64,000 nt of DNA, taken from the NCBI GenBank assembly GCA_001940925.1, contig MSGZ01000024.1, positions 177,264 through 241,263 on the forward strand, written 5' to 3'. Both the position numbers and the translations under genes were made by a program. The notes beneath the pieces are model-generated. The model saw only the letters and a program-made list of their open reading frames with translations. It had not been told where the DNA came from and did not search any database. The stretch comes from Ruminococcus sp. Phil11. GTDB lineage: Bacteria > Bacillota > Clostridia > Oscillospirales > Ruminococcaceae. Shown here piece by piece: positions 21,952 through 59,932 of this stretch (position 1 is the first letter of the stretch; the number at the start of each line of letters is the position of its first letter).

Positions 21952-24900
21952 TTAGTGGATATAGATTGTTGCTGTTACAGTGCGATATTGCGGGTCCAGC
22001 AGGTCATCCGGCCGCATCGCGATATCCGGTACGCCGTCCGCACCGATATAGACCTGACGGATGCGGGTATGCCGGCACGGGTCATACAGCGGGTCGGAAG
22101 CGTAGGTGCCGCAGGCTTTGGAATCATGCGCGGACGGCCTTGCGTGGTAGACGATCAGCAGTCTGCCCTGCTCGTCGGTGACGAAGGAATTGTGTCCGGG
22201 GCCTGATTCGCCCGGCACATCCGCGGAGCTGAGCACGGGGGACTTGTGCTTTGTCCAGCTTTTGATATCCATGAGATTTGCATCGGCAGAGGCTTCCATT
22301 CTGCCGACGCAGTATTCCGAGCCGGTACCGGACGCCGAGAAGAACACATAGACCTTGCCGCCGGTTTTCAGGACGGCTGCGCCCTCATTGACGCGGTGAT
22401 TGACCTTTTCCCAGTCGTATTCCGGCTTGGTCAGCAGGATTGGCTTGGAGATCAGCTTCCACGGTTCATCGGGATTGATCTCCGCCATGAACAGCGAGGA
22501 ATCACCCTTGATCTCCGCCCAGATCACATAATGCTTTCCGTTGTTCTCAAAATAGGTCATGTCCAGCGAAAAGCTGGTGAAGGAATCGGTATCGCCGGAA
22601 GAAGCCTGCATCTGCCCGCATTCCTTCCAGTTCCCGGTATAGGGATCACCGTCACATTGCAGCACATAGGGGCGGATTGCCCAGATATCCGAGCTTGCGC
22701 CGGCAGCAAAGAAGATATACCATTTCCCGCCGATCTTGTGCATCTCCGGCGCCCAGATATGCTTTGCCAGAATGCCGCTGCTGTGCGCTTTCCAGACCGT
22801 TTTTTCCTCTGCGGATGCCAGCCCCGCAACGGTGCTGCTCCGGCGCAGGATGATCCGGTCATAGCCTTTGTCCACACTGCCGTATGCCGGATATGATGCG
22901 GTGAAGTAGAAATATCCGTCACCGCCGTCCGTGACAAAGGGGTCGGCACGTTCTTCGATAAACGGATTCTTGTAATCTGCGGCGAGCACCTTGCCGTTCA
23001 CAGTATAGGTGCCGCGCTTTGATGTGTCAACCTTTGCGAGCGCGTCGGCATCCCACTGCACGGGAAGCTTCATGCTGCCGCCGTCACTGTAGTGCGCCGT
23101 GACGGTCTGCGGGAGATTCAGCGCGTTTCCGGTAAACATGACCTCCGTGACGTCATCCACGCCGGTGTTGAATAATGACGATTGACTGCCGCCGCCGAAC
23201 GCGCCGGTCAGTGCGGTGTACTGATCCGCCGTGATCCGGATGACGTAGCCGTGCCGCGGTGTGAAGCCTTCAAAGCTGTAGCTGCTGCGGCTGACCGTTG
23301 TGAAGTTTTCGAGGTCATCCGTTTTCTGCATGACATAGTAGCCGTCGCCGTAGGCATCGGACATCATGATCCATTCATTTTTGCCGATGAGCCGGTAAAT
23401 ATTCGGTCCCTCAACGCCGAGGCTGCCCTCGGAGATCTGTTTGATCTCTTTGTAGGGGCCGTTTGCCTTGTCCGCCGTCGCAAGATAGATGCGCTTGTTC
23501 GTCTCGTTTTTATAATACATATAGTATTTGCCGTTCGCGTAAATGATATCCGAGTCGATCGCGTCATTGCCGTTTGCAGGCGCAAAGAGCAGCTTCGGTG
23601 CGCTGTCCAGCTTCATCAGATCCTTGCTGTATGCGTAGTACATGACTGTACGGTCGTCCGTGCCGGGGACGCGTGCCGCAAAGTAGATCATATATGCCTG
23701 CGCGTCCGGGTCGTAGATCGCCTGCGGTGCCCATGCGCGGTCACAGCCCTGCATGTTCGGGTACTTGTTTGCAATTTCGATCAGGGACTCATCGAACCAG
23801 TGCACAAGATCGGTCGATTTCGCGCTGATGAGATTGCGGTTGCTGCTCCAGCCGAGCGACGATTTCATATCAGTGGCGAGCAGATGCCAGAGACCGTCCT
23901 CCCCCTTGAAGATATACGGGTCACGGATGCAGCCGGTGCCGACGGATGACTGCCAGACGGCCTTGCCGCCGTTCAGCGCTGTGAAGTGATAGCCGTCGCG
24001 GCTGACCGCATAGGAAAGACGCTCCTGCTCCGGTGCATTGCCGAGGAAATACACGAACAGGTAAGCGACCGGTGCACCTTCGTAATACTTGTGCGCGGCG
24101 ATCTCCGACAGGCTGAATTTGTCCCGCTGTACGGTGAGATATTCGCTGAGTGCTTCGGCATCTGCCTTGGCGACAGGCGAGCGCGTGATCACCTGATCGG
24201 GTGCCAGCACAGCCGCTGCGGTATAATCCCCGCAGTGCGCAACGGATGTCATCAGGTCGTCAAAGCCTTTCATGAGACCGCGCTTCTGGAGCGTCAGATC
24301 TTTGGCGGTCAGTACGCCGTCAAAATCAAGGTCGCACCGGAGATAACGGTATTTGTTCTCCGCCGGACGGATGTAGAACTTCTGTCCCTCGCCGCCCCAG
24401 TAATCCCACTGGTCAATGTTCGCGCCGTTGTCATAGCTGATATCGTAGACGTCCATGGCCGCATTCCCGCTGCATTTCGCGGTGATGTAATACGCATCGT
24501 CGGTGCGGTTCAGCCTGAACATCTGCGAATCCGCGCCGGTATAGGCAGACAGCGAGAAATTGTTTCCGTTTGTGCTGTCGCCGCCCTCAACGGTGATCGC
24601 TTTGGTATGGTCAGCACCGGCAAGGAACGCGACATATCCGCCGCCTGCGTCAATGATGTGCCAGTTCTGGGAGTCGCCGCTGCGGGCTTCCCACTGCATG
24701 ACGTTGCCGTCATCGGCCGCGGTGATGAACTTGCCGCTCAGCCGCACCATGATCGAATAGTCCGTGCCGAACGCGATCCTTTTCGCGGCGTCGGCATAGC
24801 TTGCGCAGACCGCTGCATCTGCGGCATCCGCAGGCGGTGCAGGCAGCAGCGGAAGCATACAAACAGCGAGTGCCGCTGCTGTCAGATATCTTTTTCTCAT
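21952..24900 (-). CDS. Secreted double GH43 enzyme with ricin-type lectin and internal dockerin-like segment
   Basis: 982 residues. A signal peptide (to about residue 27) is followed by a ricin/CBM13-like trefoil (about 43-175), one dockerin calcium loop (about 190-201, DLDFDGVLTAKD), a first GH43 five-blade propeller (about 255-545), a Big_4-like linker domain (about 575-645) and a second GH43 propeller (650-975). Each propeller shows plausible D-D-E catalytic positions: IRDPYIF and GVEGPNIY in the first, RADPFVT, SLDMTYF and VNEGAAVL in the second. GH43 enzymes remove arabinose or xylose from arabinoxylan, arabinan and related chains. The second dockerin repeat is not recognisable, so docking may be weak or lost. 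Confidence 0.85.
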   Translation of the reverse strand: MRKRYLTAAALAVCMLPLLPAPPADAADAAVCASYADAAKRIAFGTDYSIMVRLSGKFITAADDGNVMQWEARSGDSQNWHIIDAGGGYVAFLAGADHTKAITVEGGDSTNGNNFSLSAYTGADSQMFRLNRTDDAYYITAKCSGNAAMDVYDISYDNGANIDQWDYWGGEGQKFYIRPAENKYRYLRCDLDFDGVLTAKDLTLQKRGLMKGFDDLMTSVAHCGDYTAAAVLAPDQVITRSPVAKADAEALSEYLTVQRDKFSLSEIAAHKYYEGAPVAYLFVYFLGNAPEQERLSYAVSRDGYHFTALNGGKAVWQSSVGTGCIRDPYIFKGEDGLWHLLATDMKSSLGWSSNRNLISAKSTDLVHWFDESLIEIANKYPNMQGCDRAWAPQAIYDPDAQAYMIYFAARVPGTDDRTVMYYAYSKDLMKLDSAPKLLFAPANGNDAIDSDIIYANGKYYMYYKNETNKRIYLATADKANGPYKEIKQISEGSLGVEGPNIYRLIGKNEWIMMSDAYGDGYYVMQKTDDLENFTTVSRSSYSFEGFTPRHGYVIRITADQYTALTGAFGGGSQSSLFNTGVDDVTEVMFTGNALNLPQTVTAHYSDGGSMKLPVQWDADALAKVDTSKRGTYTVNGKVLAADYKNPFIEERADPFVTDGGDGYFYFTASYPAYGSVDKGYDRIILRRSSTVAGLASAEEKTVWKAHSSGILAKHIWAPEMHKIGGKWYIFFAAGASSDIWAIRPYVLQCDGDPYTGNWKECGQMQASSGDTDSFTSFSLDMTYFENNGKHYVIWAEIKGDSSLFMAEINPDEPWKLISKPILLTKPEYDWEKVNHRVNEGAAVLKTGGKVYVFFSASGTGSEYCVGRMEASADANLMDIKSWTKHKSPVLSSADVPGESGPGHNSFVTDEQGRLLIVYHARPSAHDSKACGTYASDPLYDPCRHTRIRQVYIGADGVPDIAMRPDDLLDPQYRTVTATIYIH

Positions 24901-25063: not shown

Positions 25064-25092
25064 TTGCAGTTTTTTCTTTTTTATGCTATGAT
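25064..25092 (+). promoter_or_regulatory. Promoter of the first ECF sigma operon
   Basis: TTGCAG (25064-25069), 17 bases, TATGAT (25087-25092), about 75 bases before the start. It looks like a sigma-A site. The stretch just before it (25017-25063) is a GC-rich fragment resembling repeat family B. Confidence 0.65.
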
Positions 25093-25170
25093 AGGAATAG
25101 AAAAAGATGTAACGCAGCAGGTGAAAATCTTGTCTATTAAAGAAAAGACGGGGGAAAAGGGGGGGTGCCG

Positions 25171-25728
25171 GTGAAGGATGAAGCGATTTTACAGATGTTC
25201 GAGGAACGTGATGAGCGTGCGATCCGGTGGGCAAACAGGAAATACGGAAAGGGCTGCATGAAGATTGCGCGGGATATCCTGCGGAGCCCGGAGGATGCAG
25301 AGGAGGCAGTCGATGACATGTGGCTGCGCGTCTGGGAGGCGATCCCGCCGGCACACCCGGATAATCTGTTTGCGTTTCTCTCTGCGACGGTCCGCAACTG
25401 CGCACTGAACCGCGTCACCGCCGGTCGGACGCAGAAGCGCGGGGGCGGGGAGCAGGATGCCGTTCTGGACGAGCTTGCATACTGCGTTGCGGACAAAAGC
25501 TCCGTGGAGGACACTGTCGATGCGGTCATGCTGCAGAACGCGATCGAGCAGTTTCTCAATACGCTTTCCTACGATGCGAGAACGGTGTTCGTCGAGCGGT
25601 GTACGAATCTGACGCCCGTCGCGGAGGTCGCGGAGAAATTCGGCATCAGCGAGAGCAAGGTCAAGATCACGCTGATGCGTACAAGGAAGAAGCTGAAGGC
25701 ATATCTGGTAAAGGAGGGCTGGCTATGA
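25171..25728 (+). CDS. ECF-type RNA polymerase sigma factor
   Basis: 185 residues. Region 2 (DAEEAVDDMWLRVWEAIPP, then FLSATVRNCALNRV) and region 4 (LSYDARTVFVERCTN, FGISESKVKITLMRTRKKLK) fill the protein; no region 1.1 or 3. Such factors direct polymerase to stress or signal regulons and are held by a membrane partner. The GTG at 25171 follows a GGGGAAAAGGGGGG stretch; GTG 25165 is an alternative. The stop overlaps the next ATG (ATGA), which marks the next gene as its translationally coupled partner. It lies beside dockerin enzymes on both sides. Confidence 0.9.
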   Translation: MKDEAILQMFEERDERAIRWANRKYGKGCMKIARDILRSPEDAEEAVDDMWLRVWEAIPPAHPDNLFAFLSATVRNCALNRVTAGRTQKRGGGEQDAVLDELAYCVADKSSVEDTVDAVMLQNAIEQFLNTLSYDARTVFVERCTNLTPVAEVAEKFGISESKVKITLMRTRKKLKAYLVKEGWL

Positions 25729-27368
25729 CGGAACAGGATCTGCTGTATGCAATGCGCCATGTCAGCAGCAGGTATACCGATGAAGCGCGTGAACGTGCGG
25801 AAAAGGCCGCAGAGAAAAAGCGCAGCCGCATCGTGAGGCGGACGGCTTTGGCAGCAGTAGGGGCAGCGGCATGCTTCGGGCTGGTGCTGTTCGGTCTGTC
25901 GCATATCCCGGAGCAGGATCTCAACGTCGCGGAAAGCGATGCGGAGGTCGAGGTCACGCAGATCGCGGAGACTTCCGCGGCGGAAACATCCGGAACACTT
26001 CCTGCCGGCACGGAATCCGGAGACCGGCCGGCAAAAACGGTCCTTGCCGCAAACGGTACGGCACCGCAGCAAAATAATCAGACAGCGGCGGCAAAGGAAA
26101 CCGGTACGGCAGCTGTCACGGCGGAACAGACCGTAAAGCCTGCTGCCGGTCAGACGGCGGCAGCGGTCACGGGTAAAACGACCGTCGTATCCGCAGCGGC
26201 AGCGAAAACGACCGCTCCGGCATCTGCACAGGCTGTCATGCCGGACAGACTGACCTACGAGCTGGTGCCGCGGGGCAAAACGGGCTGGCTTTCGGCGTAT
26301 GAAAACGGGCTTGCGAATCATGTTTACCGCGCAGAGCCGGGCGAGGATCTCTGGCTTGACCTGCGCGTGCGGAACGATCCGGGCACGTATTCATGTTTTC
26401 TGACCTTTGAACTTGGGGAACTGGAACTGCTGGAATGGGAGAACGGAAATGTATTCCCGGAGCTTTCGGTCAGAGATTACGTCAAGGAACCGCTCTTCTT
26501 CCCTGACGATTATCCGAAATATGACAGATATGAACTTGTGGAACCGGAGCGGCATTATGTCTGCTGTTCTGCGATGAACAGGCGTTCGGAAAATACTTAT
26601 GCTGCGGACGGCAGCGTGCTGTGCAGTCTGCATGTGAAGGTACCGGAAGCCGGCGGACGCTATCCGCTGACGCTGACGCAGAAACCGATGATTTTCACCT
26701 GGTACTTAAATTACATCCCATACGCGAATGAAGTGACCCGGATGGATCCGTTCCTGTATCTCACACAAACGAAGCTGCAGCCCTTTACGTTTGTCGGAAC
26801 GGATATCCTTGTCGGAGATGAACCTGTGCCGGGAAAGGCAGAGCCGCTCGGAACGGAAACGCTGTACCGCGAGTCCTTCTATGCAGATGACCCGGAAAAG
26901 CGGCGTGAGATCATGCAGCTCGGCATTCTCCGCGCGGAGGGAAACGCCGGTGATGATCATGTGCCGGTGCAGCTTTTCGTCCTGAATAATGACGGCTTCG
27001 GCAGCCTGTATCTGCAGATCAGGCATGGTATTGAACTGACGGCCTGTGAGGACGGAAACGGCATCATCTTTGAACCCGCTGAAGCTTTTTCGGATATGAC
27101 CTGCACCGCTTCGGCAACCACGGACGGCGTCTGGTCGTTCCGGCTGGAACGCGGCAGCAATGCGGATCTGAATGCAGAGGGCTGTCTCGGAACATTTTAT
27201 GTGAAGATCCCCGAGGATACGGTATCCGGTCGTTTCTGGGAACTGGAAACGGATGTTCAGCGTGCGCAGTATCCGGACGGCAGACCGCTGACCTATTACG
27301 AAAGCGAGAACGCTGAGCTTCAGGTCATTTTCGGACGCTGGTATGAGGATGAGGAAACAGAGGAATAA
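25725..27368 (+). CDS. Transmembrane anti-sigma-like protein with two cohesin-like outer domains
   Basis: 547 residues. A short charged cytosolic part (1-36), one membrane helix (about 37-58), an Ala/Thr/Gln-rich linker (60-172), then two outer domains. Domain 1 (about 200-360) has AEPGEDLWLDLRVRNDPGTY early and DGSVLCSLHVKVPEAGGRYP late; domain 2 (about 398-537) has DHVPVQLFVLNNDGFGSLYL early and GCLGTFYVKIPEDTVSG late. This early/late pairing (N-terminal strands with a VxVxNNPG run, later G-L-xxLxFKVP and aG-Y) is the pattern of cohesins, which bind dockerins. That it is an anti-sigma factor is inferred from overlap with the ECF gene and topology; its cytosolic part shows no known anti-sigma motif. 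Confidence 0.6.
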   Translation: MTEQDLLYAMRHVSSRYTDEARERAEKAAEKKRSRIVRRTALAAVGAAACFGLVLFGLSHIPEQDLNVAESDAEVEVTQIAETSAAETSGTLPAGTESGDRPAKTVLAANGTAPQQNNQTAAAKETGTAAVTAEQTVKPAAGQTAAAVTGKTTVVSAAAAKTTAPASAQAVMPDRLTYELVPRGKTGWLSAYENGLANHVYRAEPGEDLWLDLRVRNDPGTYSCFLTFELGELELLEWENGNVFPELSVRDYVKEPLFFPDDYPKYDRYELVEPERHYVCCSAMNRRSENTYAADGSVLCSLHVKVPEAGGRYPLTLTQKPMIFTWYLNYIPYANEVTRMDPFLYLTQTKLQPFTFVGTDILVGDEPVPGKAEPLGTETLYRESFYADDPEKRREIMQLGILRAEGNAGDDHVPVQLFVLNNDGFGSLYLQIRHGIELTACEDGNGIIFEPAEAFSDMTCTASATTDGVWSFRLERGSNADLNAEGCLGTFYVKIPEDTVSGRFWELETDVQRAQYPDGRPLTYYESENAELQVIFGRWYEDEETEE

Positions 27369-57746: not shown

Positions 57747-59375
57747 TCATTCACTGAACGCTCTGAATGCACTTTCAATGTCCTCGTCAACAGTCTCATA
57801 GGATGCGGTTTCAGGGTGGAGAATATAGCTTCCTGCATATTCCTCCCGATTGGTCTCCCAGTCAACCAGATACGCAGTCGCCAGCGTATGTTCTTTGCTG
57901 CAGTCCGGATACATATAATCCGTTGCAAATCCGTCTCCTTCCATGTCGGCCGGGAGCGTAACACCGATAATCTTCTGCGATTCATCGCGCAGGCAATAAT
58001 ATAATTTCTTATCCGGACGCTGCCCGGAATAGCTGAATTTCATCACGATGTTCTGCTCGCCTTCTTTTTTCACAACCTGAAGCACAACGAACGACTGTAA
58101 ACCGCACGGTTTTGACACTTCACTTTGCTTCACGACAGTTCCTGCCGGATACTCGTCTGAATCTATGAGATACCTGAGCGGCAGAACGCCGGATTCTTCT
58201 GCAATTTGCTTTGCACTTTCCCAGTCCATACCGGTCACATCCGGAATCTCAGCTTTCTGCCCTAAGCTGACCGTCACATACACCGTGCTGCCGATCGCAG
58301 CCTCCGTGCCCGGTTCCGGGTCGATCGAGATCGGCTGACCGGACGGCACTTCATCGTCATAGCGGGTGCGCTTGTCAATGACAAGACCGTGATCCATAAG
58401 CGTCTTTTTGGCAGCTTCCCAGTCCATGCCCATGATATCCGGCACAGTCGTCGGGTCGCCCTTTGCACCGATGTTCACAAACAGCTTGATCTCATCGCCC
58501 GGATTGACCCAGTAGCCCTCGCCGTCAGAGTAGCTGTACTCCCTCGCGCCCCCGTCAACATATTCCGTGTTATACGGCGGCACAAGTTCAAACGTGACAG
58601 CCCCGATGTCAACATCGGCGTCAGAACCGAGGATCTGTCCCTCCATAACGACGCTGACACCCTTGTCTGCGAGCATTGCCGCTGCTTCCTCATACTGCAT
58701 CCCATAAACATCCGGGATCCAGATCATGCTGTCAAACACATCCGAAATTTCAAAATCGAGATGCCCGAGGATGCCCTCTGTTTCGCCGTCCTCTGCAAGA
58801 TTCACCAGCGTATAGCTGCCGGCGGGGAGCTGTTCAAAGCAGAGCCGCTGCAGGCTTTCGCCCCGTGCAATATCATCGAAAAACACCGTATAGGGTTCAC
58901 AGTCCGCGACCTTTTCGCCGTTCTGCGTCACGATATATACCGGATTGTACGGGATATGATCCTGCTCTGTACGATTGATAATATTGATCATGATGCCGGT
59001 CGGCAGGGGAGCGGTTACATCTGTATTGAGCTCCATATAAGGCTTTGCAATATCCTGCACCTCTGATTCTGCGGAGACCGCCGCGCCCGGCGTCACGCTG
59101 TCGGACGCTTTCATTCTGCTGATGCCGTAGATCAGCGCGCCGTTCAGCCCGAGGCAAAGCGCGACTGCCGCAGCAATGCCTGCTCTGCCGATGCGGAGCG
59201 GTGCCTGCTTTGCTTTTTCTGCACGCTGTTTCTTCATTGTATGCGCTCCTTTCGTCATGCGGATTGCCTGACCGCGCTGTTCCTGCGGAGATTCGGAATC
59301 CGCCGTCCGGAATGCGCAGTCCACAAGGTCCTCCGGCAGATCGCCGAGCAGCTCCATATAGTTCATCGGCTTCAA
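57747..59375 (-). CDS. Transmembrane anti-sigma-like protein with three PASTA domains
   Basis: 542 residues. A cytosolic N-terminus (1-64) with ELLGDLPEDLVDCAFR, one membrane helix (about 65-86), a bacterial Ig-like segment (about 125-205), then three PASTA domains (about 216-302, 308-372, 375-437; IPDVYGMQYEEAAAML, VPDIMGMDWEAAKKTL, IPDVTGMDWESAKQIA) and a C-terminal beta-rich domain. PASTA domains bind peptidoglycan stem peptides and are known from Ser/Thr kinases and PBPs. TTG 59375 is taken as start: GGAGG lies seven bases before it and it overlaps the sigma stop (TTGA). Anti-sigma role is inferred from that coupling. Confidence 0.72.
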   Translation of the reverse strand: MKPMNYMELLGDLPEDLVDCAFRTADSESPQEQRGQAIRMTKGAHTMKKQRAEKAKQAPLRIGRAGIAAAVALCLGLNGALIYGISRMKASDSVTPGAAVSAESEVQDIAKPYMELNTDVTAPLPTGIMINIINRTEQDHIPYNPVYIVTQNGEKVADCEPYTVFFDDIARGESLQRLCFEQLPAGSYTLVNLAEDGETEGILGHLDFEISDVFDSMIWIPDVYGMQYEEAAAMLADKGVSVVMEGQILGSDADVDIGAVTFELVPPYNTEYVDGGAREYSYSDGEGYWVNPGDEIKLFVNIGAKGDPTTVPDIMGMDWEAAKKTLMDHGLVIDKRTRYDDEVPSGQPISIDPEPGTEAAIGSTVYVTVSLGQKAEIPDVTGMDWESAKQIAEESGVLPLRYLIDSDEYPAGTVVKQSEVSKPCGLQSFVVLQVVKKEGEQNIVMKFSYSGQRPDKKLYYCLRDESQKIIGVTLPADMEGDGFATDYMYPDCSKEHTLATAYLVDWETNREEYAGSYILHPETASYETVDEDIESAFRAFSE

Positions 59376-59932
59376 AGCAATCCCTCCTTTTCAAAAGCTT
59401 CTTTCAGTTTTTTGCGTGTACGCCGCAGCGAAAGCTTGACGGCGTTCTGGGTGATGCCGAACTGTGCCGCGATGCTCTGCACAGAAGCGGCGAGGTAATA
59501 CCGCTGCAGAAAGATCGCCTTTTCCCTGTCAGGGAGGGTGCGCAGAAGCGCGGCGGTCTGATCGAGCAGTTCGCGGCGTTCCAGCTCCGTTTCGACCGTT
59601 TCCGCTGCCGGAACGATCTCTGCGATCTCGTCAAGCGCAGCGGCAAACTGGGAGCCGCCGCGTTTCAGTCTGCGTTCATGCTGATAGCGGTTGATCGCGT
59701 TGCGACGTGTCAGTGCCGCGAGGTAGGCGCGGAGACTTTCTGGTTCATTCGGCGGAATGCTGCGCCAGACCGCCATGAGTGTATCACTGACGCATTCCTC
59801 TGCATCCTCATGGTTTCCCGTGATCTGATATGCAAGCTGCCTGCACAGCTTTCCGTAAACGGAACGGATCATCTCCAATGCAGCTTCATCGCGCTTCTGC
59901 AGCAGCGCAATGATCTTGCTGTCGTGAAGCAT
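59372..59932 (-). CDS. ECF-type RNA polymerase sigma factor
   Basis: 186 residues. Region 2 (HEDAEECVSDTLMAVWRSI, YLAALTRRNAINRYQ) and region 4 (LPDREKAIFLQRYYL, FGITQNAVKLSLRRTRKKLK) are well conserved. It is a distant paralogue of the sigma factor at 25171. The downstream PASTA-domain gene overlaps it by four bases. An ATG with GGTGAGGAGGTGAG upstream is the start. The regulon cannot be told; self-control is likely. Confidence 0.92.
   Translation of the reverse strand: MLHDSKIIALLQKRDEAALEMIRSVYGKLCRQLAYQITGNHEDAEECVSDTLMAVWRSIPPNEPESLRAYLAALTRRNAINRYQHERRLKRGGSQFAAALDEIAEIVPAAETVETELERRELLDQTAALLRTLPDREKAIFLQRYYLAASVQSIAAQFGITQNAVKLSLRRTRKKLKEAFEKEGLL

Follow-up and report, generated by a model that had tools for sequence, protein, structure and literature searches.

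A gene pair that may act as a switch with a cohesin-built sensor lies in a 64,000-nucleotide stretch of DNA from Ruminococcus sp. Phil11 (contig MSGZ01000024.1, positions 177,264 to 241,263; the whole stretch analysed is called the window here). Its first gene encodes an extracytoplasmic function (ECF) sigma factor, and its second a membrane protein that is probably the cognate anti-sigma factor and whose outer part carries two cohesin-family domains (D1 and D2). Cohesins normally hold together the enzymes of the cellulosome, a cell-surface complex of plant-digesting enzymes, and this genome encodes one. Our reading, advanced tentatively and with slightly less than even confidence, is that the pair forms an autoregulated sigma/anti-sigma switch in which the tandem of two cohesin-family domains is the outer sensor. 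The parts of the pair are as follows.

25108 to 25138, plus strand: promoter-like element TGTAAC-N17-TGTCTATT, upstream of the sigma gene
25165 to 25728, plus strand: ECF sigma factor, 187 amino acids, GTG start (alternative GTG at 25171)
25725 to 27368, plus strand: membrane protein, probable anti-sigma factor with two cohesin-family domains, 547 amino acids
25725 to 25832, plus strand: cytosolic N-terminus, residues 1-36, probable sigma-binding segment
25842 to 25898, plus strand: single transmembrane helix, residues ~40-58, preceded by basic residues (N-terminus inside)
25905 to 26243, plus strand: Ala/Thr-rich linker, residues 61-173, read from the sequence
26244 to 26819, plus strand: cohesin-family domain D1, residues 174-365
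26331 to 26573, plus strand: divergence hotspot within D1, residues ~203-283, from comparison with a sister species
26910 to 27335, plus strand: cohesin-family domain D2, residues 396-537

The sigma factor matches Sigma70_r2 (PF04542), Sigma70_r4_2 (PF08281) and Sigma70_ECF above the Pfam cut-offs and TIGR02937 (sigma70-ECF) above its cut-off in an NCBIfam scan, and it holds sigma-70 regions 2 and 4 only, as an ECF factor does. The ATG of the membrane protein (25725) and the TGA of the sigma gene share the letters ATGA, a 4-base overlap of the kind that marks coupled genes, so that domains and open reading frame (ORF) coordinates bear out the earlier note, made from the window's letters, in its claim of an ECF sigma gene overlapping the next one. 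The one-helix topology described there holds as well, with a single hydrophobic segment at residues ~40-58 (hydropathy 2.14 at residue 40) and no second one.

This pair belongs to a large family within the same genome. The window sigma matches 33 places, itself included (E 2.9e-32 or better), and thus has 32 paralogues; a membrane protein with one hydrophobic segment follows the sigma in all 33, and the 4-base overlap is found in 31 of the 33 pairs. The 33 partners have a common N-terminal motif, roughly (M/V)K..D.(hydrophobic)...(hydrophobic)..(hydrophobic)P..(hydrophobic)(hydrophobic)..A, and little else. A conserved cytosolic segment ahead of one membrane helix is what defines an anti-sigma factor of this kind, and an N-terminus and helix common to all partners are as expected for the part that binds sigma, which the motif probably represents. 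In a Pfam scan of 30 of the other 32 partners (L051 and L197 lay outside it) four have PASTA domains and no other family rises above cut-off. Cohesin profiles single out the window protein among the 33 (E 1e-59 or better), the next match, at 6e-4 and with a mixed profile, being a PASTA-domain partner encoded elsewhere in the window. Sigma factors of this family occur in 30 of 30 genomes of the genus, at 1 to 33 each, and in 71 of 197 sampled genomes of the family. The pair at C25:70953 has a tandem copy.

A dockerin profile run on the 33 partners and one relative gave one clear match (E 3.7e-7) and one weak one (0.0027), the rest being at 0.01 or above; the clear match is to the first calcium loop, and none of this establishes a full dockerin. 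Dockerin-like calcium loops were seen in the outer part of the anti-sigma-like partners L182 (C24:32967), L185 (C35:39716) and L196 (C27:86484), and of L062 and L068 in other genomes; only that of L182 is clear by profile, and that of L068 was read by eye. Such partners could be counterparts of the cohesin sensors.

The identity of the two outer domains rests on homology. No Pfam or NCBIfam model of any kind, the cohesin model PF00963 included, matches the window anti-sigma beyond chance, which is unsurprising because many Ruminococcus cohesins are missed by PF00963 and were found only through structure prediction in a 2024 survey (PMC11557425); a phmmer search of the Protein Data Bank with the single window protein likewise gave one chance match (E 2.9). 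Residues ~151-376 do match modules of the genome's own scaffoldin-like ORFs, at E values down to 1.4e-15, and profiles built from anti-sigmas only (7 of the 12 full-length ones described below) retrieve solved cohesins first, D1 finding 5n5p at E 8.1e-6 and D2 finding cohesins in its first 19 rows. In its frame strands and end motif D1 resembles the ScaA/ScaB-like modules of this genome, and D2 is by profile nearest to ScaE-type and other solved cohesins. The predicted structure models have the nine-strand cohesin fold and match cohesins best, above other beta sandwiches. Sequence similarity to known cohesins and the models together support homology of D1 and D2 to cohesins and a predicted fold of the cohesin kind for each. 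The earlier note had proposed two such domains from four peptides, which we locate at residues 203-220, 295-307, 411-424 and 486-497, and its borders (195-360 and 395-540) are close to those given by homology (~174-365 and ~396-537). Of the checks that it named, structure prediction came out as it had anticipated, at low model confidence, and profile search did so in part, failing with the Pfam and NCBIfam cohesin models and succeeding with the anti-sigma profiles against solved cohesins. A chance likeness between beta-rich domains would be in keeping with the missing Pfam and NCBIfam matches and the low confidence of the models, but we find it hardly credible, as it is already disfavoured by significant similarity to the genome's own scaffoldin-like modules, by the profile matches to solved cohesins and by structure matches that stand above other beta sandwiches.

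The arrangement recurs. A profile of seven full-length proteins finds 12 full-length two-cohesin anti-sigmas in 6 of 30 genomes of the genus (full-length meaning a match that begins by profile position 11 and reaches at least 481 of 520; that of G010 is in two pieces). Each of the 12 immediately follows an ECF sigma gene in the same orientation, which supports sigma factor and membrane protein as a conserved unit. Seven of the 12 accompany sigma factors of the window's family, four of these being only 40-45% identical to the window's, and five accompany a second type, which we call sigB, in five genomes with one pair each. Four of the five sigB pairs lie upstream of, and co-oriented with, ScaA/ScaB-like modules, at 13 kb (G000, G005, G015) or 6 kb (G008); for the fifth, in G001, the contig stops 3.9 kb past the pair on that side. 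Among 297 sampled genomes of the family (5 of them from this genus, with at most five candidates scored in each genome) full-length forms occur only in this genus; a scan of one genome per species found an 87% identical orthologue alone, and two profiles found no match in viral contigs. Neither the 33-member family with its fast-changing outer domains nor the second type of cohesin pair upstream of scaffoldin-like genes was in view of the earlier note's reader. One genome holds two scaffoldin-like gene sets with ScaA/ScaB-like modules, at C5:27-38 kb (L036, L037) and C9:258-264 kb (L039).

Two membrane-anchored cohesins would also suit a small cell-bound anchoring scaffoldin that merely shares an operon with the sigma gene and has no part in regulation. 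We consider this very improbable, since the N-terminal motif is common to 32 partners without clear cohesins (the best of them at E 6e-4), the 4-base overlap is kept in 31 of 33 gene pairs and 12 of 12 cohesin forms follow an ECF sigma gene.

Between near relatives the outer part varies at an unusual rate. Compared with the sister species G015 (a sheep-omasum metagenome assembly; locus L073, JAFWQJ010000058.1), the window has 290 mismatches over 4590 aligned bases, of which 60 fall within the 240 bp compared at 26331-26573 (25%) and 230 in the 4350 elsewhere (5.3%), the top value of 2000 shuffles being 38. By alignment this hotspot, D1 residues ~203-283, would cover strands forming part of the dockerin plateau of ScaB cohesins, described as the 8-3-6-5 sheet (PMC5934362). 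The cytosolic N-terminus is 94% identical between the two species and the sigma factor has a dN/dS of 0.09, whereas in D1 residues 224-292 dS (0.58) and dN (0.26) are both raised, giving a ratio of 0.45. Because dS is raised too, the hotspot is better explained by an imported segment than by point selection. In the sigB pair divergence is ~5% from the upstream DNA through the sigma gene, N-terminus and helix into most of the linker, rises to 30-67% per 60-bp bin over the entire outer part, and gives way to similarity again at the stop codon. The sigma factor of the G000 sigB pair is 97% identical to that of G015 and 79% to that of G001, with its cohesin part at 42% and 50% (the outer part of G005, also of sigB type, was delimited by a fallback rule in this comparison); high sigma and low cohesin identity fit an exchange of alleles. 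Moreover D1 of G008, on a sigB chassis, is 43% identical to the window's D1 and only 22-25% to D1 of two other sigB pairs, and sensor domains therefore seem to have been moved between sigma/anti-sigma chassis.

Similar change is seen across the 33-member family. Sister pairs were assigned one to one, as reciprocal best matches, on the central sigma of each locus (6 of 33 unpaired, with no locus at 3 of 33 sister places), and in 9 of the resulting 27 the outer part is 25-62% identical with the sigma at 95-99%; 12 of the 27 sister loci are cut, so that their outer parts were compared in part. In L175, L188, L191, L182, L051 and L036 the outer domains are strongly diverged or replaced relative to the G015 loci, and the sigma gene and its upstream DNA are ~90-98% identical. 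DNA similarity ends inside the partner gene at C11, C9, C8, C21:165459 and C24:32967; only C11 (0.7 kb beyond the stop) and the sigB pair show it resuming, the others having no clear resumption or reaching the end of the locus. Mis-assembly of the metagenomes is a caveat to these differences, yet the frames remain open. An outer part below 65% identity beside so constant a sigma, together with the PASTA domains of four partners, would suit an envelope-stress switch whose outer domains vary through exposure to phage or host defence and whose cohesin fold is incidental. This is improbable in our judgement: the cohesin architecture survives the change (L132 matches the profile across both domains), and the linker, likewise exposed, has no divergence peak in the window pair.

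Upstream of the sigma gene the promoter-like element takes the form TGTAAC-N17-TGTCT(A/T)TT across loci. It is kept in the cohesin pairs L073 and L055 and in L058, L062 and L064, which have the same sigma type with other outer domains, and is not found upstream of the sigma gene in L056 or in the sigB pairs L036 and L059. The 60-bp bin that contains it (25080-25139) has 0 mismatches to the sister species. Its exact form occurs once in the genome, before the window sigma, which suggests that this sigma factor is autoregulated. A looser promoter pattern stands upstream of 4 of the 33 sigma genes, against 0.4 in shuffles. At C35:102831-102861 (L077) a one-mismatch element lies ~160 bp before an ORF with an in-frame dockerin match, a lead only and no better than the control.

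For sigma inhibition, ligand, signal direction, proteolysis, autoregulation and regulon we infer the following course. The cytosolic N-terminus of the membrane protein would hold the sigma factor at the membrane, as the operon structure, the conserved overlap and the motif common to the 33 paralogues suggest. The Ala/Thr-rich linker would carry D1 and D2 outside the cell, where their ligand is most likely a protein; enzymes with dockerins, or pieces of a scaffoldin, from the cell's own cellulosome are the leading candidates. By analogy with RsiV, binding would trigger proteolysis that frees the sigma factor, which would then transcribe its own operon and further targets. A site-2 protease gene is present in the genome, as it is in 14 of 14 control genomes.

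RsiV of Bacillus subtilis is described as binding lysozyme and then being cleaved by regulated proteolysis. The RsiV/sigma-V system is thus like the present one in pairing an ECF sigma factor with an anti-sigma that has an outer part, the binding of a protein being reported for RsiV itself, and it is unlike it in being one pair rather than 33 paralogues. RsiV likewise has a short cytosolic N-terminus and one helix; its outer domain is not known to be a cohesin. The RsgI/sigma-I systems of Clostridium (Acetivibrio) thermocellum and relatives are similar in having a membrane-bound anti-sigma with an outer sensor, paired with a sigma gene and present as several paralogues in one cellulosome producer. 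They differ in that the window sigma is an ECF factor by Pfam and in their sensors, which for A. cellulolyticus are listed as CBM3, CBM42, CBM35 and PA14 domains, a peptidase and unknown types, with no cohesin among them (PMC3413522). Membership of the RsgI group was rejected on domain content, as the partner is ECF and no RsgI model in Pfam or NCBIfam matches up to E 10 (HMMER filters drop most matches above ~0.1). RsgI sensors are stated to be used only by Acetivibrio-type bacteria (PMC11557425), and a 2018 paper described sigma-RsgI as the sole transcriptional regulator known for cellulosome genes (PMC5801460). From the Ruminococcus flavefaciens ScaA/ScaB and ScaE cohesins, which D1 and D2 respectively resemble as described above, the protein differs in its N-terminal membrane helix, its position behind a sigma gene and the loss of three placed contacts in D1. 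As the earlier note had supposed, we found no cohesin-bearing anti-sigma factor in our searches of the open-licence PubMed Central literature. An ECF sigma factor with a probable sensing anti-sigma is a known kind of system; by these searches the proposed cohesin sensor and the changeable outer domains are new.

Several observations weigh against the proposed switch. Both structure models are of low confidence (mean pLDDT 51.8 and 55.9, with two sequences each). A dN/dS of 0.45 for the variable face gives no support for positive selection, and the regulon search, at one mismatch, gave 4 matches against 4 for the reversed control and hence no convincing regulon. By eye, 11 of 30 genomes of the genus have ScaB-like modules without such an anti-sigma. 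At 3 or 5 kb the 33 pairs are not significantly nearer to dockerin genes than expected by chance, with 7 of 33 within 3 kb (7.4 expected) and 14 of 33 within 5 kb (10.5 expected, P 0.12). Finally, profile and module alignments place Ala-775, Ala-777 and Gln-778 of CohScaB5, the three residues that could be mapped onto D1, at Tyr-222, Cys-224 and Phe-225. In CohScaB5 the two alanines belong to a hydrophobic platform and the glutamine is engaged in a hydrogen bond (PMC5934362).

In the ScaA/ScaB-like modules of this genome the first alanine is retained and the third residue is Gln or Glu. In CohScaB3 the change of Ala-38 to Gln abolishes binding (PMC5429695), at what is presumably the same position as the mapped CohScaB5 contact. 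Binding of ScaB-type dockerins in the known way is not predicted for a D1 without these contacts, so that D1 should not bind such partners in that way and could bind others. Cohesins of a single organism can have very different specificities at the same face, as ScaB and ScaC cohesins do (PMC5429695), so a domain without one contact set need not have lost dockerin binding. Sensing of dockerins or of occupancy by the outer domains is a plausible hypothesis. Dockerin-bearing enzymes do lie on both sides of the window pair, as the earlier note had said, but they are a weak signal because the genome is so rich in dockerins, with at least 149 matches (150 of 291 candidates scored); at 8 kb the 33 pairs reach 20 of 33 against 14.2 expected from random positions (P 0.026), which is weak. 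The relevant neighbour, followed by the second pair of the same family in the window, is listed here.

21952 to 24900, minus strand: GH43 protein (Pfam GH43) with a dockerin-like EF-hand repeat, a divergently transcribed conserved neighbour
59375 to 59926 and 57750 to 59375, minus strand: second pair of the same family, sigma match and PASTA-domain partner

In three genomes (the window's and those of L054 and L055) the GH43 gene stands beside the pair and is transcribed away from it. Its protein also has a ricin-type lectin, and the mid-protein dockerin-like repeat was read by eye, Pfam calling none.

The lost contacts lead to a different account, which we think rather unlikely, of domains that are cohesins by descent and fold yet no longer bind dockerins, a re-used scaffold that would sense a glycan, a cell-wall piece or a foreign protein. 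It gains from the conserved frame strands beneath a diverging face, from other partners of the same sigma family that carry PASTA or unassigned domains, and from cohesin-like modules outside cellulosomes, which appear among the matches to the predicted structures. It loses in that same-face specificities differ so much that the lost contacts are not decisive, and in that the second type of cohesin pair lies near scaffoldin-like genes in four genomes.

If the proposed switch is real, a cohesin on an anti-sigma factor could let the cell count the dockings of its own enzymes, so that a machine outside the cell would feed back directly on its genes, and it would bear on the control of the Ruminococcus cellulosome. 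The variable outer domains suggest a route to new sensing without change of the regulator. A broader possibility, doubtful as it stands, is that ECF switches form a large battery in this genus (33 paralogous pairs in this genome and a second sigma type), in which a fixed chassis of sigma factor and cytosolic segment would carry an exchangeable, fast-changing outer cassette; one class of cassette would be the cohesin pair, reading dockerins and so informing the cell of how its cellulosome is composed or occupied, with alleles swapped between lineages as the enzyme set changes. With an outer half built of cohesins, the proposed switch may give the cell a reading of the enzyme complex on its own surface.
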